This document shows positions 1 to 36,937 of a stretch of DNA of 64,000 bases, in pieces. This stretch comes from an uncultured Actinomycetes bacterium (GTDB lineage Bacteria; Actinomycetota; Coriobacteriia; Coriobacteriales; Atopobiaceae), in contig OMWB01000012.1 of NCBI GenBank assembly GCA_900314645.1, positions 1 to 64,000 of the forward strand, in the 5' to 3' direction. A model generated the notes under the pieces. It searched no databases and had not been told where the DNA came from. It saw nothing but the letters and a program-made list of their open reading frames with translations. A program made the translations under genes and the position numbers. Positions within the stretch are counted from its first letter, which is position 1, and each line of letters opens with the position of its first letter.

Positions 1-2
1 TG

Positions 3-167
3 ATCGGCGGCAAGGACTACTACTTCGACTCCTCGGGCGCCATGGCCAAGAGCAAGTGGGTAGGCAACTACTACCTGAAGGCCGACGGCACCATGGCCAG
101 GAACGAGTGGGTCGACGGCGGCAGATACCACGTCGACAAGAACGGCAAGTACGACAAGAAGCGGTAA
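3..167 (+). CDS. C-terminal fragment of a surface protein with cell-wall-binding repeats (5' end outside window)
   Basis: An open frame enters from the left edge and stops at TAA 165-167. The visible 54 residues contain aromatic/glycine repeats of the choline-binding (CW_binding_1) type, such as YYFDSSGAMAKSKWVGNYYL followed by KADGTMARNEW, and end in a lysine-rich tail. In this family such repeats hold secreted proteins to cell-wall polymers. The same repeat style recurs in the surface protein at 58816-60354, so the two are probably related by family. The N-terminal domain that would define the function is not in the window. A terminator hairpin follows 30 bases downstream. Confidence 0.85.
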   Translation: MGGKDYYFDSSGAMAKSKWVGNYYLKADGTMARNEWVDGGRYHVDKNGKYDKKR

Positions 168-285: not shown

Positions 286-1143
286 TCAACGCAGGGGAAT
301 CATCACGGTTGCGATAAACGTGTCTCCTGCTGACTCGAACTCGGCAACGCCACCGTGGTATTGGGCGATAGTTTGCACAATACTGGTTCCCCAGCCATGC
401 TTGGACTCGCTCTGAGGCCTGATTCTTATCCTCTTCTCGCCAACTAGATGATGTCGCTGCGGATTGCGCACCTGTATGAAAAGCTGTCCAGCCTGGATGC
501 GCCCACACAGCGTGATCTCAGGCTGGCGCGTAGGATTCTCGGCACGCAGCGCCTTACACTCGTTGAGGGCGTTGTCAATCAGGTTGAACAGCAGCGAGGC
601 GACTTCAGCGTTCTGCAGCGGAAGCTCCTGCGGCAAGTCAATCTTGCTGTCAAGCCGCACGCCTGCCTCCTCGCACTCCCGTGCCTTCACCTCCATGATG
701 GCGGCTACGGTTACGTTGGCGCATGGTTGGCGCTTCATGTCTGACGCAATGTCAAGACCCAGCCAAAGGTGCTTCGTTGCGTCCTCGGCATGTCCCGCCG
801 CAAGGTCTTCGCGTGCCTTTGCAAGCTCTGCCTCGACACCCAGGCCAATCTCGCGTGTGCGCCGCTCTTCACGCTCAGCCAGCTGGCGGTAATGCTCCAG
901 CGTCTGCTGAAGCTGTTGGCTCACGTCTTGAGCGTAGACTTGCTCGATGCGGTCGAGCGCTTGTAGTAGATAGTGGGTGGCATACCAATCAGCCAATCCA
1001 AGCGCAAGGGCAATGGCTGCTGACACAACCATGTCAAGCAATTGCAGCGCTGGAGCCGCCAGTGAGTGAGCGTACGTCAGGAGGCCCAGCTGCAATACAT
1101 ACAGCGTGACACCAAGTGCGAGGATGACGTGGCGCCTATTCAT
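286..1143 (-). CDS. Membrane GHKL ATPase, catalytic half of an apparently split LytTR-system histidine kinase
   Basis: The protein has 285 residues. Two membrane segments lie near residues 7-25 and 33-52, then a coiled linker, then a GHKL-type ATPase: N-box LLFNLIDNALNEC (184-196) and a glycine-rich lid HGWGTSIVQTIAQYHGG (249-265). At the place of the phospho-acceptor helix (94-107) the sequence RTREIGLGVEAEL has no histidine. The longer in-frame start at 1284 lies inside the upstream gene. ATG 1143 overlaps that gene's stop by 8 nt (ATGAATAG), which suggests translational coupling, so it was chosen. Inference: it phosphorylates the histidine carried by the partner at 1136-2041 in a heterodimer. 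An independent regulatory ATPase is possible. Confidence 0.8.
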   Translation of the reverse strand: MNRRHVILALGVTLYVLQLGLLTYAHSLAAPALQLLDMVVSAAIALALGLADWYATHYLLQALDRIEQVYAQDVSQQLQQTLEHYRQLAEREERRTREIGLGVEAELAKAREDLAAGHAEDATKHLWLGLDIASDMKRQPCANVTVAAIMEVKARECEEAGVRLDSKIDLPQELPLQNAEVASLLFNLIDNALNECKALRAENPTRQPEITLCGRIQAGQLFIQVRNPQRHHLVGEKRIRIRPQSESKHGWGTSIVQTIAQYHGGVAEFESAGDTFIATVMIPLR

Positions 1144-2041
1144 GCTCTGCCCTAGCATCGTTGGGTGTAGGCCCAGCAAACTGGCGCACCATGTCCTGGA
1201 ATCCAGAAAGGTACTCGTCAGCCTCGGCAAAGCGGCCTTGGTCAGCAAGCGCGTGCACAATGCCAATCTGGTTTGCGAGGTCATGGCGTATGCGCCGCAT
1301 CGCCGTGGATCGGCTTGTCATGCGTTCAGCTTCTTCCATGAGGTGCTTGATTTGGCGCTTATTCGCTGCCCGAAGCGCAATCTCTCGCTTTGCGTGGGCA
1401 TCCCATCGGGCAATGCGTAAGAGCAAAAGGCTGATAGTTACGGCAAGAATCGCGCCCAGGCCCGTAACCACCGGCACGATGGCGCTCTCCACGTTGCCTA
1501 GGTCAAAGCGCACCAGAAGCATGACGAAGAACATGAACGAACTCGTCATCATGATGAATGCCGTCGGCTCAAAGGCCTCGTCCCAAGCGTCATCGGTACG
1601 GCGCAAAAGGGCTATGGCCGCCTCGCATGTGATAGTGGTCGTGAAGATGAGTACCGTATAGACCAGCGTGATGGTCAGGGGGGCGGCTTCAGAAAGGTTG
1701 GAGGGGAACGGTTGCCCGCTCAGCATGTAGTAAACAAGCGTCCCGATAATCTCCGTCAGAAGAACGACCATGTTAAGGAAGGCGATACGGGTGAGCCGCT
1801 GTCCAATCGGACCATGTGACATGACCATAGGGATGGCGAGATTTGCGAGTACGTTAACGATGAAGGCGCGGACGATGGGATTGAACCCCATAAAAAGCAT
1901 GGTGAAGCTCATGCCAAAGCAGCACAACCACAGAAGCAGAGAGAGGAGTACTGACCTAATGTCAAGCACCATGCAAAACGCTCGTCTTACGATGAGCTCA
2001 ACCGACATGCTGAAGGAAACGTAAAGTACGATGGATAGCAT
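1136..2041 (-). CDS. Multi-pass membrane protein carrying the histidine-kinase phospho-acceptor helix but no ATPase domain
   Basis: The protein has 301 residues. The first ~210 contain about six to seven hydrophobic segments. A cytoplasmic helix follows with the H-box RRIRHDLANQIG (acceptor H253), typical of GHKL/LytS-like sensor kinases. The protein stops about 48 residues after the histidine, where a normal kinase would continue into the ATPase domain. That domain is found in the next gene, which starts inside this stop codon. The response regulator ends 8 bases upstream, so the three genes form one operon. No frameshift joins the two halves: both frames are clean and the downstream half has its own membrane segments. 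Confidence 0.82.
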   Translation of the reverse strand: MLSIVLYVSFSMSVELIVRRAFCMVLDIRSVLLSLLLWLCCFGMSFTMLFMGFNPIVRAFIVNVLANLAIPMVMSHGPIGQRLTRIAFLNMVVLLTEIIGTLVYYMLSGQPFPSNLSEAAPLTITLVYTVLIFTTTITCEAAIALLRRTDDAWDEAFEPTAFIMMTSSFMFFVMLLVRFDLGNVESAIVPVVTGLGAILAVTISLLLLRIARWDAHAKREIALRAANKRQIKHLMEEAERMTSRSTAMRRIRHDLANQIGIVHALADQGRFAEADEYLSGFQDMVRQFAGPTPNDARAEHE

Positions 2042-2049
2042 GCCAGTAC

Positions 2050-2766
2050 CTACGAGCGACTCGCAAGATACATGAGAAGATCGTGCTGAAGCTCGTGTGC
2101 GCGACGACGGCTGACTGGCAGACGTGTCCCGTCGTGTAGGGTTACTTCGCTTTCGTCGAGCGAACTCACGGCAGCAAGGTTGACTACGAAGCTGCGATGG
2201 CAGCGCGAGAACGTGCTGGGGAGCTGCCTCTGCAAATCATCGAGCTTGGCATAGGTCTCCATCTCGCGGCCGAGGCAGTGCACGATTACCTTGTGCAAGC
2301 GGCTTTCAAGGTAGAGGATCGACGAGGCATTGATAAGCTGCTCCTTGTGTCCGACCTTGATGCGCAACATGGCGGGGCGCGTGCGTGAGAGCTGTGCCAA
2401 CGCACGATTCAGCGCGTCGGCCAGGCGCTCGGGATCAATGGGCTTGAGCAAAAAGTAGACGTGCTTGGTGACATATACCTCTAGTGCTTGCTGAAGGTAT
2501 CCGCTCACGTAGATGACTTGCGTTCCGCTTTCCGGTGGAAAAAGCTGGCTCACCATCTGGATGCCGGTGGGCTGCCCTTCCTGCATGATTACATCACAGA
2601 GGAGCACGTCAACCTGTGTGCCAGCACAAACGAGGTCATGCAGCTCCTGTGGCCCGCACGCGTCAATGATGACGTGGGGTAGGCCTTCGGGCAGCGCCTG
2701 TTCCACGAGCTCGTGGATGCATGACAGGCTGTGCGTATCGTCGTCACAGATGGCGATGGTAATCAT
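2050..2766 (-). CDS. LytTR-family response regulator
   Basis: The protein has 238 residues. The receiver domain starts MITIAICDDD (acidic pocket) with the phospho-acceptor in VDVLLCDVIMQEG and the conserved lysine in FLLKPID. A LytTR DNA-binding domain follows from about residue 130, with INASSILYLESRLHKVIVHC, CHRSFVVNL and LPVSRRR. LytTR proteins bind direct repeats upstream of cell-envelope, bacteriocin or quorum genes. An in-frame ATG at 2829 adds 21 unlikely residues; ATG 2766 gives the canonical receiver start, with GGGAGG about 12 nt upstream. It is the first gene of the operon with the split kinase. Its targets cannot be read from the window. Confidence 0.9.
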   Translation of the reverse strand: MITIAICDDDTHSLSCIHELVEQALPEGLPHVIIDACGPQELHDLVCAGTQVDVLLCDVIMQEGQPTGIQMVSQLFPPESGTQVIYVSGYLQQALEVYVTKHVYFLLKPIDPERLADALNRALAQLSRTRPAMLRIKVGHKEQLINASSILYLESRLHKVIVHCLGREMETYAKLDDLQRQLPSTFSRCHRSFVVNLAAVSSLDESEVTLHDGTRLPVSRRRAHELQHDLLMYLASRS

Positions 2767-3029: not shown

Positions 3030-3248
3030 ATGAATTTTCTGCAGCTGCTGCGAAAGCGCAAAGGCAAGAGTCAGCAAGACATGGCCGACCTGCTGGGCAT
3101 GACGCGACAGACCTACGCGCGGCGAGAATCGCATCCCGAGAGCATGACCATCGAGGAAGCCATGCTCGTAAGCCGTGTGCTCGATGTTGACGTGGGACAT
3201 CTGGCGACAGGTATCGCCCGCTTTGTTGACGAAGCGCCAAGGGAGTAA
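3030..3248 (+). CDS. Small XRE-family (Cro/CI-type) transcriptional regulator
   Basis: The protein has 72 residues and is essentially one helix-turn-helix domain: LRKRKGKSQQDMADLLGMTRQTYARRE, followed by a helix IEEAMLVSRVLDVDVGHLATG. A GAGGGG Shine-Dalgarno sequence lies 9 nt before the ATG. It is divergent from the LytTR operon across about 260 bases of relatively AT-rich DNA (2767-3029) that probably holds both promoters; no clear -35/-10 pair could be assigned. Similar stand-alone XRE proteins are often autoregulators. The target is unknown. Confidence 0.85.
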   Translation: MNFLQLLRKRKGKSQQDMADLLGMTRQTYARRESHPESMTIEEAMLVSRVLDVDVGHLATGIARFVDEAPRE

Positions 3249-6651: not shown

Positions 6652-7684
6652 TCCCTCTCGCCACAAGGAAGACCAAAGTGCGACGCGCGGTCGGCGCGTC
6701 GCATGCTTTGAATGGGCACGTGCATTGGGCTGCGTCGCCATTGTGGCCCTGCACGTGTACACCACGCTGTGGGAATCGGTGGGGCGCGCCTCGTTTGGCC
6801 CAGCGCGCGCCTTCGTGGAGGGCTCGCTCTCCATCCTGCTGGGGCGTTGGGCCGTGCCCGTGTTCCTGATGGTTACCGGAGCGCTGCTGCTTGACCCCGA
6901 CAAAGATATGGGCTGGGAACGGTTGCGCCGCTACATAGGTCGCATGCTGTTTGTACTGGCTACGTTTGGGCTGGCGTTTTGCCTCATTGAGAGTGTGTAT
7001 GATCACCGCGCGTTCTCGATTGCCGTGGTGGGGGAAGCCATATGGCATCTGCTGACCGCGCAATCGTGGGGGCACTTATGGTACGTGTACGCACTTTTGG
7101 GCCTGTACGCGCTGACGCCCGCGTTGCGGAGGCTCACGGCGATGCGTGACCGTCGGGCGCTCGAGCTGGTGCTTGGTGTGTTGTACGTGGTCGTGCTGGG
7201 TGGGATGACGGCTCTGCATGTGGTTCAGCACACGCTGTTTTTGCGCGTGAACCTGCTGCCCGCGCTCTTCTATTATGTGCTTGGTTGGTACGTGTGGGAG
7301 TACCTGCAGCTGGATGCCCGCACGGTGGGTCTGGGCGTGGCGTCGGTGGCGGCGCTTCTCGTGTGTCAGGCCTTCGATCATGGTGAGATGGCGCTGCCGC
7401 AGTACTGCTTGGTGGCTCCCTATGGGGTGCTGGTGTTTCTGCTGCTGCGGCGTTTTGCGGTGCGACCGCCTGAAGAGGTGCCAGTCGTTGGGTTTTTGGC
7501 AGATCGCAGCTTTGGCGTGTACGTGGTGCATCCGCTTTTCCTACATGTGCTGGTGCGAGTCCTTGACCCATTGGCGTTTCCGCCGGGCCTCTACGAGCTG
7601 CTTGCCTTTGCGGTGACGCTTGCGGGCTCGCTGGTGCTGGTTGACGTGGTGCGCCGCATCCCCGGCTTTGCCGAACGCGTGTAG
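6644..7684 (+). CDS. Acyltransferase 3 family integral membrane protein
   Basis: The protein has 346 residues and about ten membrane segments. The start of the family is clear: RRVACFEWARALGCVAIVAL followed by H-V-Y, then GRWAVPVFLMVTGALLLDP and the terminal FGVYVVHPLFLHVL. These enzymes move acetyl or other acyl groups onto extracytoplasmic sugars, wall polymers or lipids. The longer frame from 6536 lies inside asp23; ATG 6644 overlaps its stop by 8 nt and is preferred. As the last gene of the envelope-stress operon it may modify a wall glycan. The first unit of the repeat array begins 5 bases after its stop. Confidence 0.85.
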   Translation: MPSPSRHKEDQSATRGRRVACFEWARALGCVAIVALHVYTTLWESVGRASFGPARAFVEGSLSILLGRWAVPVFLMVTGALLLDPDKDMGWERLRRYIGRMLFVLATFGLAFCLIESVYDHRAFSIAVVGEAIWHLLTAQSWGHLWYVYALLGLYALTPALRRLTAMRDRRALELVLGVLYVVVLGGMTALHVVQHTLFLRVNLLPALFYYVLGWYVWEYLQLDARTVGLGVASVAALLVCQAFDHGEMALPQYCLVAPYGVLVFLLLRRFAVRPPEEVPVVGFLADRSFGVYVVHPLFLHVLVRVLDPLAFPPGLYELLAFAVTLAGSLVLVDVVRRIPGFAERV

Positions 7685-7689
7685 GCGCG

Positions 7690-8003
7690 GGAACGCCATC
7701 TGGTTTCGTACCATCCCTGTCCGCTAGCTGGGAACCTTATTCGGTTTGGTACCGCACTCGAAGGGTTGCCTGGAACGCTATTCGGTTTGGTACCACGCAA
7801 TAGGCGGGTGCTGGAACGCAATTGCGTTTCGTACCACTCCTAACGGCCAACCGGGAACCTTATTCGGTTTGGTACCGCACTCTAGGCGGGGATTCTACGG
7901 TACGAAACGCAATAAGGTTCCAGCGGGAGGCTCCGCGGTGGCACCAAACGAGATAGCGTTCCAGCGAGCAACCGCACACTGTCACCAAACGCAATAAGGC
8001 TCC
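7690..8003. repeat. Array of 24-bp repeats at 41-bp period, five forward then three inverted units
   Basis: Forward 24-bp units begin at 7690, 7731, 7772, 7813 and 7854; inverted units begin at 7898, 7939 and 7980. Every step within an orientation is exactly 41 bp (24-bp unit plus 17-bp spacer), and a 20-bp centre separates the two halves. Each unit starts GGAAC, contains GGTTTGGTACC (or GTTTCGTACC) and ends A or G, so its ends are imperfectly complementary. The spacers are diverged but related. Transcribed, the halves could pair into one long imperfect hairpin. The remaining DNA to 8174 holds a shared end motif CCGTTGCAA (8039-8047) and a TTGACA (8128-8133) before the next gene. Confidence 0.93.
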
Positions 8004-8174
8004 CGCTCCAAACCGTGCTAACCACCCGTTACCGAAACCCGTTGCAACTGATCACGCGTTTTGCAGAATACCGCCCGCTAGCCGCAGTTTGCTTCCAGCC
8101 AAGTTTAGAAAGACGGCCTCCCTCCACTTGACAAGCCATATCGTCGAATGACAGGCAGCAACAGGGAGGTTCCT

Positions 8175-9287: not shown

Positions 9288-9559
9288 GAACGTAATCGCG
9301 TTTCGTACCGTATTTGAGGCGGCTGCTGGAACGTCATTCGGTTTGGTGCCGCTGCCGGAGGCTCGTCTGGAACGTCATTCGGTTTGGTAGCACAGTTAAG
9401 GCAGGAATCTGTGGTACCAAGCGCAATGAGGTTCCTGCGGGCGGCTCCGCGGCGGTACTAAACGCAATAGGGTTCCAGCGGGAGGCTCCGCGGTGGTACC
9501 AAACGAGATAGCGTTCCAGAGGGCGGCTCCGCGGTGGCACCAAACGAGATAGCGTTCCA
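9288..9559. repeat. Second array of the same 41-bp-period repeat, three forward then four inverted units
   Basis: Forward units begin at 9288, 9329 and 9370; inverted units at 9413, 9454, 9495 and 9536, all in exact 41-bp steps, with a 19-bp centre. A fifth inverted unit would begin at 9577, where only CGGTATGC remains. The inverted-half spacers are nearly constant (AGNGGGNGGCTCCGCGG). As in the first array, it begins just after a plus-strand stop codon (19 bases) and ends near CCGTTGCAA (9599-9607). The rest, to 9677, shows only the leader of the next gene. Confidence 0.93.
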
Positions 9560-30600: not shown

Positions 30601-30865
30601 CAAGGGCATCTTCGGCAGCCTCAAGCTCGTCTGCCGTGAAGTCGCTCTTGTAGTAGTCGGCATCCAGGTCCTTGGCGCCAGCGGGCGTAGTCCAACTCTG
30701 CTGGTAGCCGAGCATGTCGTTGGCCATGCGCGAGATCATGCCCATGCGCGGCAGGATGACGTTGACGCCAACCATGGCTGCTGACAGGACGAGTGCCAGC
30801 GCTGCCTTGACGATGGTCTTCACCACCCGTCCGATCTTGCGTGCTGTCGATATTTGCTGTGCCAT
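27665..30865 (-). CDS. Glycoside hydrolase family 3 protein with reversed domain order
   Basis: The protein has 1,066 residues. A basic N-terminus and one hydrophobic segment (about 20-40) suggest membrane anchoring or secretion. Residues ~80-400 are the GH3 alpha/beta-sandwich domain (ASEGFVLLKND, GTCGTDALADIFCGNVSPSG). An Fn3-like domain follows (VTVTNTGNVTGKDVVEIYAQ). The TIM-barrel comes last: MNIHRTPFTGRAAEYYSEDP, IKHFAFNDQENHR and nucleophile D924 in GFIITDSANAG. The sandwich-first order is known in some Ruminococcus and yeast GH3 enzymes. The substrate is probably a beta-glucoside, not determinable here. A C-terminal hydrophobic segment (VNIIGGGGIGAIGITGW) may add an anchor. GGAAGGGG precedes the ATG. 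Confidence 0.9.
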   Translation of the reverse strand: MAQQISTARKIGRVVKTIVKAALALVLSAAMVGVNVILPRMGMISRMANDMLGYQQSWTTPAGAKDLDADYYKSDFTADELEAAEDALDYAIASEGFVLLKNDDATMPFEQGTTFSFFSENVKNLTATQSIMTMFTGASGDQDKLTASFEAKGLHVNPTLMEFYSKGAGSAYTMGVGSINFGAAEDFHINECPLSELEAAEGVLDSAQDTVPVFVWRRVAGEGRDMPRSMYNHADNAEDKVKSYLEPDTTELEILSYLNDNYENVVLLVNTASALQLDWVAQFPNIKSILFVPSTGTCGTDALADIFCGNVSPSGKTVDTFVADALASPAGKNYGDFEFVDADGNPTSYNYVSYLEGIYVGYRYYETRYEDSVLGQGNAGDFDYDAEVVYPFGHGLSYTTFDWSDLDVTWDGLKAITAKVTVTNTGNVTGKDVVEIYAQAPYTSYDKSYGVEKASVALVAYGKTDVLEPGASETLTIDVDPALLASFDAKGAGTYIIENGTYYIVAGHDSHDAVQNVLAAKGQSVGGDASLAATHELTINSKRAMKDQKTVDATTFSTDAYTGNKIQALLGFADVEGTQLTRADWEGTFPASDGTPIEGDISTWGNAINGTDAEGNPASLVWGKQASAELLEQLESKDSLNPTDDATITDEPVYGAKNGKTLIELRGLDYDDPAWDELLDQLTIEDYREIVGHSGYGSEYLKSVGKPFVIDADTAAGLIYGTPHGMGGRMFPSSIVMAQTWNQELAESYGRMLASEANLSGTSGTAGWYAPSMNIHRTPFTGRAAEYYSEDPIISGTVAAHEMHGAAELGMYSTIKHFAFNDQENHRGDGGIDKSVSTWMGEQAAREIYLRPFELCMHAPDVELTYYTLGEDGTYTLNTRTQRACQGIMTAFNRIGATWTGGCYPLLQQLVRNEWGFNGFIITDSANAGSPAFDQSQMIRAGGDAFLRSNENTYLFDPTNAAEYHYAREAAHHLLYTTANSRAMNGAVPGSEYKNGMQAVDKLRLAVNIIGGGGIGAIGITGWINHKKRQLERMAADPTAAVAGAVPGADKATSLLDRVKGLFKKN

Positions 30866-31016
30866 ACGTGCCCCTTCCTCTGTGGACGAACGTCATTACC
30901 TTACCGATTTCACCTTAGCCCGTGAGCAGGCCGCGCCTGAAGGTTCGTCCAAATCGGTCGATAGCGTGTCAAAACCGGGACACCTCGTGTGCCACAATGT
31001 AAGGCGGGGAGGGGAC

Positions 31017-31733
31017 ATGCTGCGCATCCTGATAGTTGAGGACACACCTGAAGAGGCCGCCGTGCTGCAGGCACATCTTGAGCGCTATGCCACAGAGCAT
31101 GGGCTTGACCTCAACGTGGCCTGGCTCAACAATGCGCTCGACTTCCTCGAGGACCGCCCGCAGGCTGACCTCATCTTCATGGACATCGATATGCCGGGCA
31201 TTAACGGGTTGGATGCGGCGCGGCAGCTGCGCGAACATGACGCGATGACGCCGCTCGTATTCGTGACCAATCTCGCCCAGTATGCGGTACGCGGCTACGA
31301 GGTCGATGCCGTCGACTTCATGGTGAAGCCCGTGCGCTATGCGGATTTCAGCATGCGCATGGCACGCGCGCTACGCGCGGTTGACCGAACCGCCCGGCGT
31401 TCCCTAACGGTGAAGACGCGTGACGGCTTGCAGATCTTCTCGGCATCTGACCTGCTTTTTGTTGATACGCAGGGTCATGACGTTGCGTATCACGTGGCAG
31501 GGGAGCGGGCTCCCTTTGTCGTGCGTGATTCGCTGCGCAACGTGGAGGCTGAGCTGAGCGGTCTGCCGTTCGTCCGGCTCTCGAGCAGCGCTCTCGCGAA
31601 CATGGCTCACGTGCGCCGTGTCCGCGGGGACGAGGTGACGCTCTCAGACGGAACCGTGCTTTTCATGTCACGCGCAAAGAAGCGTGAGGCACAGGCAGCC
31701 ATCGCGACGTACCTGGGTGGTGGCGCTGGGTGA
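31017..31733 (+). CDS. LytTR-family response regulator
   Basis: The protein has 238 residues. The receiver starts MLRILIVEDTPEE, with the phospho-Asp in ADLIFMDIDMPGINGLDAA and lysine in VDFMVKPVRYADF. The LytTR domain (about 135-235) shows IFSASDLLFVDTQGHDVAYH, LPFVRLSSSALANM and VLFMSRAKK. The frame is open to 30714, but ATG 31017 with GGGGAGGGG 5 nt upstream gives the normal receiver start. It overlaps the kinase gene by 4 nt (GTGA), so the pair is an operon. The ABC transporter at 33200 is the natural candidate target. Confidence 0.92.
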   Translation: MLRILIVEDTPEEAAVLQAHLERYATEHGLDLNVAWLNNALDFLEDRPQADLIFMDIDMPGINGLDAARQLREHDAMTPLVFVTNLAQYAVRGYEVDAVDFMVKPVRYADFSMRMARALRAVDRTARRSLTVKTRDGLQIFSASDLLFVDTQGHDVAYHVAGERAPFVVRDSLRNVEAELSGLPFVRLSSSALANMAHVRRVRGDEVTLSDGTVLFMSRAKKREAQAAIATYLGGGAG

Positions 31734-33088
31734 GGCTGCTCATTGACATGCTGCAACCGCTCGGCGCCGTCGTAACCATTGTCCTTGGCATCTGGGTTCT
31801 TGCGGAGCCGTCGGGTCAGCGTGAGCCGCGGCTGAGGCGCGCATGCGAGGTTGCCCTGCCCCTTGTGAGCGGCATCGTCTTCTTCAGCTGGTTTGGCACG
31901 GTTGCCCACCCTGAGCTCACCATCAATGGCACGTCCCAATTGATTGGCCAATTCCTGGTGTTCACGCTCTTGTATGTGTTTGGCGTCTGGGGAGCGCACC
32001 ACGTCTTCGAGGTGTCGTGGCGCCATGCGATGTTCTGCGGTTCTGCGGCCTACATCATGCAAAACCTGGCAAGCGGTATCGAAGGCCTGCTTCTGCTCCT
32101 TGCGATGCGCTGGACGGGGGCTCGGGAGGGAGATGTCCTGCTCCGTACGGCAATCAGCCTATTGTCGCTTGCACTGGCCTACGTGCCCTGCTACGTCTTC
32201 TTTGTCAAGTCTGTGCGACACGCGGGTCCCGTGCAGGTGGAGGACCGCGGCATCACGGGCGTGTTTGGCCTCGTGATCCTGCTGGTCATTCTCTTTGACA
32301 TCATGAACAAGGCGCTCGCCTATGGGCCCACTCCGCTCTTCATTCTGGTGACGCTGCGTGTGGTGCATGGCGCCATCTGCGTCTTCATGCTGTACGCCCA
32401 GTACGAGATACTCTTTGCGCAGCGCGCGCGGAGCGAGGCGGCCACGGCGCAACGTCTCCTGGCGGAGAGTCAGCGCCAATACGAGCTCTCACGTGAGAAC
32501 ATCGAGGCCATCAACATCAAATGCCACGATATCAGACATCAGATTCGTCACCTGGGCGAGCAGGGCATGGCAGTTGACGCGGACGTGTTGGCTGACATCG
32601 CGCGCGAGGTGAGCGTATACGACGCGGTCGTACGCACGGGCAACGACGCGCTGGACACGATCCTCACCGAGAAGAGCCTCGTGTGCGAACGTGAAGGCAT
32701 CGCGTTGACCTGCATAGCTGATGGCTCGTCGCTCGGTTTCCTCACGCCGGCAGAGCTGTACTCGCTCTTTGGCAACGCGCTCGACAACGCAATCGAGGCG
32801 ACACGACAGGTTGAGGATCCTGAAGGGCGGAGCATCTCGCTTCTGGTGCGCAGGGCTGGCGACATGGTGTCCATCCATGTGGAGAACACCTGCGCGGGTA
32901 AAGCCGAATTTGAGGATGGATTGCCACGCACGACGAAGCGCGACGCTCAAGGTATGCGCGACGAGATGAACCATGGTATCGGTACGCGCTCGATGCGTGC
33001 GCTGGCCGAGCACTATGGTGGCATTTTCTCGGCGGCGCAGGACGGCGGCATCTTCTGCCTGGATATCGTGCTCCCGCTTCCCGACTAG
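31730..33088 (+). CDS. GHKL-type membrane sensor histidine kinase
   Basis: The protein has 452 residues, starting at GTG 31730 inside the regulator's stop. Six or so membrane segments occupy the first ~220 residues. The H-box KCHDIRHQIRHL (about 263-274) and a complete GHKL ATPase with LYSLFGNALDNAIEATRQV and NHGIGTRSMRALAEHYGG follow. It is thus a normal one-chain kinase and a useful contrast with the split pair at 286-2041. Kinases of this type sense peptides or envelope stress and phosphorylate a LytTR partner. Confidence 0.9.
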   Translation: MRLLIDMLQPLGAVVTIVLGIWVLAEPSGQREPRLRRACEVALPLVSGIVFFSWFGTVAHPELTINGTSQLIGQFLVFTLLYVFGVWGAHHVFEVSWRHAMFCGSAAYIMQNLASGIEGLLLLLAMRWTGAREGDVLLRTAISLLSLALAYVPCYVFFVKSVRHAGPVQVEDRGITGVFGLVILLVILFDIMNKALAYGPTPLFILVTLRVVHGAICVFMLYAQYEILFAQRARSEAATAQRLLAESQRQYELSRENIEAINIKCHDIRHQIRHLGEQGMAVDADVLADIAREVSVYDAVVRTGNDALDTILTEKSLVCEREGIALTCIADGSSLGFLTPAELYSLFGNALDNAIEATRQVEDPEGRSISLLVRRAGDMVSIHVENTCAGKAEFEDGLPRTTKRDAQGMRDEMNHGIGTRSMRALAEHYGGIFSAAQDGGIFCLDIVLPLPD

Positions 33089-33199: not shown

Positions 33200-36100
33200 A
33201 TGCTTGAGCTGAAAAACATCCGCAAGGCGTACGTCACGGCCGGCTTCACGCAGGTGGCCCTCGACGACGTCTCGGTGGCGTTTCGCGACAACGAGTTTGT
33301 GGCCGTGCTCGGTGCCTCGGGCTCCGGCAAGACCACCATGCTCAACATCCTTGGCGGCCTTGACCACGCGGACTCGGGTGACATCGTCATCAACGGCATC
33401 TCAACCAAGGACTACACCGACAAGGACTGGGATACCTACCGCAACCATCGCATCGGTTTCATCTTCCAGAGCTACAACCTCATCCCGCACCAGACGGTGC
33501 TCTCCAACGTAGAGCTGGCGCTGACGCTCGCAGGCATCTCCGCCTCGGAGCGCAAGGAGCGGGCCCGTGCCGCACTTGAGCGCGTGGGCCTCGGCGATCA
33601 CGTCAACAAACGCCCGGCACAGCTTTCCGGTGGACAGATGCAGCGCGTCGCAATCGCCCGCGCCTTGGTCAATGACCCCGACATCGTACTTGCCGACGAG
33701 CCCACCGGCGCCCTGGATACCGAGACGGGTATCCAGGTGATGGACCTTCTCAAGGAGATTGCCGACGAGCGCCTGGTCATCATGGTCACGCATAACCCCG
33801 AGCTGGCCGAGGAGTACGCCACGCGCATCGTGCGTCTGAAGGATGGCCACATCATCGATGACTCCGACCCGGTGAAGGCCGTGCCGGTGGCCATTCCCGC
33901 GGGCACGACGCGCACGGAGAAGCCCAAGCGCCACGCTTCGATGTCGTTTCTCACGGCGCTTGCGCTGTCGTTCAACAACCTCATGACCAAAAAGGGCCGC
34001 ACCTTCATGACGGCCTTCGCCGGTTCCATCGGCATCATCGGCATCGCCGCCATCCTGGCACTCTCCAACGGCGTCAACGGCTACATCGCCGATACCGAGG
34101 AGGAGGCGCTGTCCTCCTATCCGCTTACCATCACCAAGAGCAGCTTTGACTTGACGAGCATGATGATGGCAAGCGTCGAGGCTGACGAGGAGAGTGTCGA
34201 GGCCAGCGAGGAAGCGGAGCTTCAAGAGGCAGCAGACACTACCTCTGACCAGCAGGTTATTCCTGAGTACACCATCATGAGCGATATGTTTGCGCGCGTG
34301 AAAAACAACGACCTCGCGCGTTTCAAGGCGTTCCTTGAGAGCGGTGACTCGGGCATTGAGCCCTACGTCAACACCATCCAGTACACCTATGGTGTCACGC
34401 CGCTCATCTACTCGTCGGACACTTCGGGCGGTGTGACGCGCCTTAACCCCTCAAAGATGTCCCAGACCATGACCAACGGCATCATGGGCTCGTCGTTTGT
34501 GGGCGGCATGACGGCGGGTGCCTTCCAAGAGCTGCTTGCAGATCAGCATTTGCTCGACAAACAGGCCGTGGTAGAGGTGGGCCGTTGGCCCGAGGCTTAC
34601 GACGAGTGCGTGCTGGTCACCACGCGCGGTGGATGGCTGAGCGACTACACCCTCTACAGCCTTGGCGTTCACAACACCAAGGACATGGAGGACATGCTCA
34701 CCCAGGCCCTCAACGGCGAGGACGTAGAGGTGCCTGAGATTGAGAGCACGTTCACCAAAGACGACGCGCTCAACCTCACCTTCAAGGTGGTTCCGGCCGT
34801 CAATCTGTACCAGAAGAATGTTGATCAGGGTACCTGGACGGACATGACGGGCGACAAAGCCTTCATGAAGAAGGTAGTGGACAACGGCATCACACTCAAG
34901 GTGGTAGGCATCGTACATCGTGCGGATGACGCCACTTCAAGTTCGCTCTCCGAAGGCATCGCATACTCTCCGCTGTTGACCGAGCACCTGATGGAGTTGG
35001 CAGCCGCGTCTGACATCGTGGGCGAGCAGATCGCTGACCACGATGTGGACGTCTTCACGGGCAAGACCTTTGAGGAGCTGCAGAACGACGACCAAAACCA
35101 GCTGGACATGGACTCCATCTTCACGGTGGACGAGGAGAAGCTGCAGCAGGCGTTCCAGTTTGACTCGAGCGCGTTTGAAGGCGTTGGCCAGGGCATGGAC
35201 CTCTCGGGGCTGGACCTGAGTAGCGCCTTCTCGGGGATGGACCTCTCCAGCATGGACTTCTCCCAGATGGACACGAGTGCGTTGGCCTCGCTTTTTGACA
35301 GCGACAGCCTGGGCGATCTGATGGGGTCGATGCCCGCCTACACGGGGCAGGACATGGACCTTTCTGGCGAGCTGAGCAACCTGGATATTGCCTCAAAGCT
35401 CGCGCCGCGTGCCGGCGAGCTGGTGGATGGCTTCGCGAGCTTCCTGGTAGACTACCTCGCTGGCGAGGAGGGAGACGAGCCTCGAGAGCTCGACATAGAG
35501 GCGCTCATCGAGGCGTACCAGCAGACCGACGGCGCGCAGGCCATCATTCAGGGGCTTGTTGACACGGTTGCCGAGGATCTCGGCGACGGCGAGGCGGCGC
35601 GTGCCATCATCGACAGCTACTTCAGCGAACAGTTCCTGCCGTATCTGCAGCAGGCGTTCGCAGACCTAGATGTGACGCAGCTCAGCGAGGAGACCATCAG
35701 GCAGATCATCGCGCAGGTACCGCCGCTGGGTCTGGATGCCTTGGGGGAGGCCATCAGCATGGAGGCCATCACCGAGGCGACGGCTGGCGCGGCAAACAGC
35801 CTGGCAGCCGACTTTGCCGCATGGCTCCTTCAGAACCCCTCGTACCTGCTGGGCGATGACCCGGAAGACCCCAAGAGCTACGGGGACCTCGTAAACCGCT
35901 ACCTAGAGACCGACTCTGCCAAGAAGATCATCAACGAGCTGATGGGAGGCCTCGGTAGCGAGGTGAGCGACACCGTGGTTCAGGCGGTGAACGCCTCGCT
36001 TTCCAACTACATGACGACTGCGGGCTCTGCGATGTCGAGCGCCCTTGAGGAGAAGATGGGTGCCGTTACGGCAGAGCTGGGAAAGCAGCTGGGACAGACC

Positions 36101-36937
36101 TTCTTTGCCCAGCTCTCAGACCAGATGGCGCAGGCGTCGCAGAATGTGGGCGCGGCCATCGCGAGCCAGATCTCTGCCAGCATGGCCCAGATGAGCAGCT
36201 CTATGGAGAACGCATTCAGTGTGGACGGTAACGCCTTCGCCGAGGCCATCCAGTTCAACATGACGCAGGATGACCTCGCGTCAATTCTCTCCAACTACAT
36301 GAACGCAGAAGAGCTGAGCTACGACGCAAATCTCAAGAAGCTTGGTTATGCCACGCTTACAGATCCTGAGTCCATCAGCATCTATCCCATCGACTTCCCG
36401 TCCAAGGAGGCGGTGCTGCGCATCATCGATACCTACAACGATCGTGTGACGGCGGATGGTGACGAGGACGCAAGCATCGTGTACTCGGACTTCGCGGGCG
36501 TGCTTATGGGGTCGGTGACCGATATCGTGAACACCATCTCGCTGGTGCTGATCGCGTTCGTGTCTATTTCGCTGGTGGTGAGCTCCATCATGATCAGCAT
36601 CATCACCTACATCTCCGTGCTGGAGCGTAAGAAGGAGATTGGTATCCTGCGCGCGATGGGCGCAAGCAAGCTGAACGTGGCCAACATCTTCAATGCGGAG
36701 ACGGTCATCGAGGGCTTCATTGCCGGCGTGCTCGCCATTGCCGTGGTGTATGCGGCGTCAGTGCCCGTAAACGCCTTCATTCTGGAGACGCGTGATGTGC
36801 CCAACATCATGAAGCTGCCGTGGGAGAACGCGCTTGCGCTCGTGGGTGTCTCGGTGGGCTTGACGCTTATCGCGGGCTTGATTCCGTCCTCGGCTGCCGC
36901 TCGACGCGATCCAGTTGAGGCACTCCGCAGCGAGTAG
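33200..36937 (+). CDS. ABC transporter with fused ATPase and FtsX/MacB-type permease
   Basis: The protein has 1,245 residues. ATPase (1-~230): Walker A GASGSGKTT, signature [15 protein letters not shown], Walker [13 protein letters not shown]-loop VTHNPEL. The permease begins at ~250 with one membrane segment (TFMTAFAGSIGIIGIAAILA). An outside region of ~800 residues follows, rich in Met/Asp/Leu/Ser repeats (SGLDLSSAFSGMDLSSMDFS), then three membrane segments and the FtsX end (SVLERKKEIGILRAMGASKL; AARRDPVEALRSE). MacB-type systems couple ATP hydrolysis to movement of large outside domains and export or resist peptides. It follows the LytTR pair, as in bacitracin-type detoxification modules. 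Confidence 0.92.
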   Translation: MLELKNIRKAYVTAGFTQVALDDVSVAFRDNEFVAVLGASGSGKTTMLNILGGLDHADSGDIVINGISTKDYTDKDWDTYRNHRIGFIFQSYNLIPHQTVLSNVELALTLAGISASERKERARAALERVGLGDHVNKRPAQLSGGQMQRVAIARALVNDPDIVLADEPTGALDTETGIQVMDLLKEIADERLVIMVTHNPELAEEYATRIVRLKDGHIIDDSDPVKAVPVAIPAGTTRTEKPKRHASMSFLTALALSFNNLMTKKGRTFMTAFAGSIGIIGIAAILALSNGVNGYIADTEEEALSSYPLTITKSSFDLTSMMMASVEADEESVEASEEAELQEAADTTSDQQVIPEYTIMSDMFARVKNNDLARFKAFLESGDSGIEPYVNTIQYTYGVTPLIYSSDTSGGVTRLNPSKMSQTMTNGIMGSSFVGGMTAGAFQELLADQHLLDKQAVVEVGRWPEAYDECVLVTTRGGWLSDYTLYSLGVHNTKDMEDMLTQALNGEDVEVPEIESTFTKDDALNLTFKVVPAVNLYQKNVDQGTWTDMTGDKAFMKKVVDNGITLKVVGIVHRADDATSSSLSEGIAYSPLLTEHLMELAAASDIVGEQIADHDVDVFTGKTFEELQNDDQNQLDMDSIFTVDEEKLQQAFQFDSSAFEGVGQGMDLSGLDLSSAFSGMDLSSMDFSQMDTSALASLFDSDSLGDLMGSMPAYTGQDMDLSGELSNLDIASKLAPRAGELVDGFASFLVDYLAGEEGDEPRELDIEALIEAYQQTDGAQAIIQGLVDTVAEDLGDGEAARAIIDSYFSEQFLPYLQQAFADLDVTQLSEETIRQIIAQVPPLGLDALGEAISMEAITEATAGAANSLAADFAAWLLQNPSYLLGDDPEDPKSYGDLVNRYLETDSAKKIINELMGGLGSEVSDTVVQAVNASLSNYMTTAGSAMSSALEEKMGAVTAELGKQLGQTFFAQLSDQMAQASQNVGAAIASQISASMAQMSSSMENAFSVDGNAFAEAIQFNMTQDDLASILSNYMNAEELSYDANLKKLGYATLTDPESISIYPIDFPSKEAVLRIIDTYNDRVTADGDEDASIVYSDFAGVLMGSVTDIVNTISLVLIAFVSISLVVSSIMISIITYISVLERKKEIGILRAMGASKLNVANIFNAETVIEGFIAGVLAIAVVYAASVPVNAFILETRDVPNIMKLPWENALALVGVSVGLTLIAGLIPSSAAARRDPVEALRSE

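Follow-up and report, generated by a model that had tools for sequence, protein, structure and literature searches.

A candidate sensor kinase with its histidine and its ATPase on two membrane proteins, from an Atopobiaceae LytTR operon and related loci of the same order

Sensor kinases are normally homodimers with both activities, and the locus described here raises the question of how one could operate with its phosphoacceptor histidine and its ATP-binding domain on two different membrane proteins. In the stretch of DNA that we analysed (64,000 nucleotides, hereafter the window), one operon on the minus strand encodes a LytTR response regulator of 238 aa (2050..2766), a histidine-bearing protein of 301 aa (H, 1136..2041) and an ATPase-bearing protein of 285 aa (A, 286..1143). 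The regulator, the first gene, matches the Pfam LytTR and receiver families over the cut-off (79.9 and 39.1 bits, respectively), and its likely phosphoacceptor is Asp58 (codon 2593-2595, minus strand). It is separated from H by a gap of 8 nt, and H and A overlap by 8 nt, so that the overlap, the preceding regulator and the coordinates all agree with the preliminary description of this DNA. The reading that we prefer, with a probability of roughly 0.85, is that H and A would form an obligately two-protein sensor kinase, in which A would phosphorylate H in trans and H would pass the phosphate to the LytTR regulator.

Along the H chain, several hydrophobic segments forming a multi-TM sensor part are followed by a DHp hairpin with the H-box RRIRHDLANQIG, in which His253 (codon 1283..1285, minus strand) is the predicted phosphoacceptor. 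The chain then stops at residue 301, 48 residues past this histidine and with no ATPase domain, as the preliminary description had it. A simple hydropathy window overcounts TM segments, and such counts are not used here as numbers. The histidine occupies the H-box column in all 78 of the H homologues, and the R, H, D and N of the RHDxxN motif are invariant in an alignment of a diverse subset. No Pfam or NCBIfam family matched H over its curated cut-off, which is why annotation pipelines tend to miss this protein, and a sequence search against solved structures returned no meaningful match.

The A protein has the complementary composition. Two hydrophobic segments and a long helix lead into a DHp-like hairpin and a GHKL ATPase domain, which matches HATPase_c_5 at 40.6 bits (Pfam cut-off 22) and has the N box NLIDNA (first codon 583..585, residue 187) and the G2 box HGWG (first codon 397..399, residue 249), both on the minus strand. 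Residues N187, D190, N191, H249, G250 and G252 are invariant in an alignment of a diverse subset of A proteins. At the position of the phosphoacceptor histidine the alignment places Leu101 (codon 841..843, minus strand), thereby confirming the earlier claim of an intact GHKL ATPase without the matching histidine. The same column holds R, E, A, L, T, Q, S, D or G, and no histidine, in 58 of the 59 A proteins, the sole exception (locus L141) reading ARHRVAEEV, where the following acid is absent. The surroundings of the H-box are still recognisable in many A proteins (e.g. VREDVACEL vs LRHDLRNQV). The predicted model of A (pLDDT 86.5) has the AgrC kinase module as its best fold match (6e52; Z 16.8 over 195 residues, rmsd 7.9), and its ATPase domain alone compares with 4bxi at Z 16.4 and an rmsd of 2.1. 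In plasmid and phage records we found only partial GHKL matches of low identity.

In regards to the gene boundaries, the A frame continues upstream without a stop as far as 1284, but homologues share the Met at 1143 as their conserved start, and the bounds 286-1143 are therefore correct. This conserved start, the two TM segments and DHp-like hairpin that A has of its own, and the recurrence of the arrangement in many genomes rule out a frameshift or an assembly error, and the earlier statement that this is not a frameshifted single gene stands.

To place the locus among its relatives we used an annotated set of 59 A loci from the order and 78 H proteins. The loci were picked from search matches, many of the genomes are incomplete and related loci are not independent samples. 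Most of the loci came from a profile of H only, with which we scanned genus, family and order, so that A was not pre-selected there. At the further loci reached in this way an A gene once more adjoins H, and a LytTR regulator is usually present (49 of the 59 A loci have one). One H gene is found at 41 A loci, two at 14, three at two and four at one, and at the remaining locus of the 59 the H gene is on the opposite strand. Three families (f1, f2 and f10) of the order, which judging by gene content is probably Coriobacteriales, gave full-length, strong matches to A; outside the order, in a sample of 398 genomes of the class, only three genomes matched, weakly. One or both ATP motifs are kept in A at 51 of the 59 loci, with an intact H-box beside them. 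Judged by these 59 loci with complementary conserved motifs, the pattern is beyond chance, and the survey of related genomes that the preliminary description had proposed finds the two-gene form recurring in independent genomes. A search of the open-access literature on Coriobacteriia, Eggerthella, Atopobiaceae and heterodimeric histidine kinases did not find this arrangement.

The preliminary description had also pointed to homologues fused as one chain as a ground for doubt. Such fusions exist (622-680 residues, at loci L117, L126/L170, L153, L105 and L148), but they keep H and A complete: the H membrane part and a DHp with RHD are followed by more TM segments, a second DHp-like hairpin and the ATPase. 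The second hairpin has R, E, M or S at the histidine position, and only the first has the histidine. That both DHp modules persist in one chain, with the histidine in the first only, supports the pairing of H with A. The model of the fused L153 protein (pLDDT 77.5, pTM 0.57) again has AgrC as its best fold match. Family f5 has ORFs of about 612-637 aa that were considered as further fusions but rejected as conventional 7TMR-DISM kinases with one DHp. A tree built from the ATPase domains groups 13 conventional kinases on one side, with a support of 93/98, and has the fused proteins branching from within the A proteins at two places at least; in this sample, H and A were thus joined or separated more than once, and in doing so appear never to have gone back to a single DHp. 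Since the H and A profiles match each other across the last TM segments and the DHp, the cross-matches suggest that an ordinary kinase was duplicated and that complementary losses followed.

A further link between the two proteins comes from the loci where A has decayed. Both ATP motifs are gone from A at 8 of the 59 loci, and at five of these eight (L042, L043, L096, L097 and L098) the acid after the H-box histidine is gone as well, with H reading RHS, RHA or HHV, vs none of the other 51 loci, where every H keeps RHD. Counter-examples are L091 and L093, in which A is degenerate and H has kept RHD. The hypergeometric chance of this pairing is about 1e-5 (calculated by hand, with loci treated as independent), a figure that overstates the true weight of the evidence because the five decayed loci belong to about three lineages or fewer. 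The frames at these five loci are still open despite the lost motifs, and the loci may have taken another role.

Where several H genes stand in tandem, their membrane parts are 21-56% identical, and at 16 of 16 such loci the DHp parts resemble each other more closely than in other H pairs of equal membrane identity, an excess that reaches about 6 standard deviations. The simplest reading is that several sensors would feed into a small number of catalytic subunits and a single regulator. The DHp similarity could instead come from a shared regulator or from gene conversion; more generally, binding to a common regulator, gene conversion and shared locus ancestry could each be a source of both the correlated decay and the tandem similarity.

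The genome of the window comprises 3.04 Mb in 52 contigs, and the window begins at the end of contig C8. It encodes two paralogues of A, and full-length homologues are found in other species of the genus; each of these paralogues and homologues adjoins one to three H genes. The second locus of this genome (L036:3305-6848, contig C32) has three tandem H, whose DHp parts are 77-89% identical and whose membrane parts are 27-39% identical, and the third is L037:3076-4898 (contig C37). Neither has a LytTR regulator nearby. The regulator of the window is the only copy of the cognate type in the genome, the next best LytTR regulator being 31% identical, and the two other loci may share it. An internal control is provided by a LytTR regulator and a conventional one-chain GHKL kinase within the window (30714-33088, plus strand; H-box IKCHDIRHQ), after which comes a protein of 1245 aa that has ABC_tran and FtsX domains (33200-36937, plus strand). 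Divergent from the operon lies a small HTH_3 (XRE-type) regulator (3030-3248, plus strand), and the contig end holds the last part of a protein with repeats that by eye resemble choline/cell-wall-binding ones (1-167, plus strand), whose gene and that of A are convergent. The window also has an intergenic array of repeats of about 41 nt with a GGTACCAAACCGAAT-like core (7684-8006, and again 9295-9468), the first half in one orientation and the second half inverted; repeats of the same kind lie near the three-H locus (L036:7047-7341), and the repeat gave 9 matches vs 0.9 expected.

In the mechanism that we propose, the membrane part of H would sense the signal and its DHp hairpin would present the phosphoacceptor, and A, whose own DHp-like hairpin has lost the histidine, would supply the sole ATP-binding domain. 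Pairing of the two proteins would most likely involve both DHp hairpins and give a heterodimer or a higher-order H/A assembly, with His253 phosphorylated in trans by A and the phosphate then handed from H to Asp58 of the regulator. At loci where several H adjoin one A, different sensors would probably plug into a common catalytic subunit. That trans action is obligate we infer from the residues missing in each protein, and we likewise infer the physical pairing of H and A, the direction of phosphotransfer and the sharing of A. We favour the two-protein kinase because H keeps RHDxxN and A, from which the histidine alone is lost, retains its N box and HGxG, because the natural fusions, the operon linkage and the correlated decay connect the two, and because the DHp similarity of the tandem H, the AgrC-like fold of A and the precedent of FasBC, discussed below, all agree with it.

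The same evidence can be set against other explanations. H could be a phosphotransferase like Spo0B, fed by another kinase, with A as a phosphatase or inhibitor. Spo0B is a soluble phosphorelay protein that has a DHp hairpin with a phosphoacceptor histidine and no active kinase domain, and H has a weak match to SPOB_a (24.5 bits, under the Pfam cut-off of 28.1). H differs from it as a membrane sensor, with several hydrophobic segments before the DHp and a dedicated ATPase partner, in an operon without a relay receiver; the ATP-binding motifs kept in A, the fusions and the correlated decay, which link H to A, make this explanation improbable. Even less credible is that the two genes are what is left of an ordinary kinase in decay, or that they arose through an error of sequencing or assembly: A and H do degenerate together at a minority of loci (L042, L043, L096-L098), but the 51 loci with one or both ATP motifs beside an intact H-box, the intact frames in many independent genomes and the conserved start and TM segments of A leave this a negligible chance.

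An alternative closer to the preferred reading concerns the geometry of the complex. H could form a homodimeric DHp four-helix bundle to which A merely docks its ATPase domain, with no DHp:DHp' heterodimer, given that ordinary kinases homodimerise via DHp, that the H-box hairpin of H is complete and that the CheA3/CheA4 pair operates by transient docking (PMC3591291). However, a DHp-like hairpin is kept in A throughout the order and would be superfluous for docking an ATPase, each fused chain has one DHp of each kind, and FasB and FasC gave no homodimers in two-hybrid assays (PMC12675982). We regard docking onto an H homodimer as rather unlikely, but as the most serious of the alternatives.

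AgrC too works with a LytTR regulator, but unlike H/A it has the sensor, the phosphoacceptor histidine and the ATPase on one chain. What A shares with AgrC/HPK10-type kinases is the DHp-plus-GHKL fold and an HATPase_c_5-type ATPase (PDB 6e52, 4bxi). The closest precedent for the two-protein kinase is streptococcal FasBC. In group A Streptococcus, FasB, FasC and FasA are two kinase-like membrane proteins and a LytTR/ComE-type regulator of one operon (Baral et al. 2025, PMC12675982). FasB and FasC each have six TM segments, a DHp and an HATPase, and they heterodimerise in two-hybrid assays; the work is done by the histidine of FasC (H246) and the ATPase of FasB, the TM and DHp of FasC plus the DHp and HATPase of FasB suffice, and candidate histidines remain in FasB (PMC12675982). 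By the published description, both systems thus have a TM+DHp(His) partner, a DHp+HATPase partner and a LytTR regulator in one operon. Unlike FasBC, where both proteins have the full TM-DHp-HATPase complement, H has no HATPase, A has two TM segments and no DHp histidine, and several H genes may adjoin one A; H/A looks like the engineered FasBC truncations made permanent by evolution.

More distant split kinases are also on record. CheA3 and CheA4 of Rhodobacter sphaeroides divide ATP binding and the phosphoacceptor function between them and are active only together (PMC3591291), and H/A likewise has, in the sense of that work, its phosphoacceptor histidine and its ATP-binding domain on two distinct proteins. 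Unlike H/A, CheA3/CheA4 are chemotaxis kinases of the CheA family, in which P1 is a separate domain; they have a cytoplasmic cluster, a CheY partner and no membrane sensor. In Synechocystis, PilL-N/PilL-C (Hik36/Hik43) is a kinase split into two genes that forms one two-component system with its regulator (PMC7656254), but it is of the CheA type and not a membrane sensor kinase. Amin et al. counted HisKA proteins without an HATPase as possible split kinases. With these systems known, the general idea is not new; H/A would add several sensors per ATPase to it.

Split kinases are predicted to show ultrasensitivity (PMC3591291), and the cleanly separable H and A subunits would allow tests of trans phosphorylation, of the partition between kinase and phosphatase, and of ultrasensitivity. 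As to the wider generalisation, that the order has obligate hetero-complex membrane kinases whose single ATPase subunit works with between one and four interchangeable sensors that bear the histidine, with signals converging, often on one regulator, we see the case as evenly balanced. Tandem sensors placed beside one ATPase subunit would offer an easy means of wiring several inputs into one regulator.
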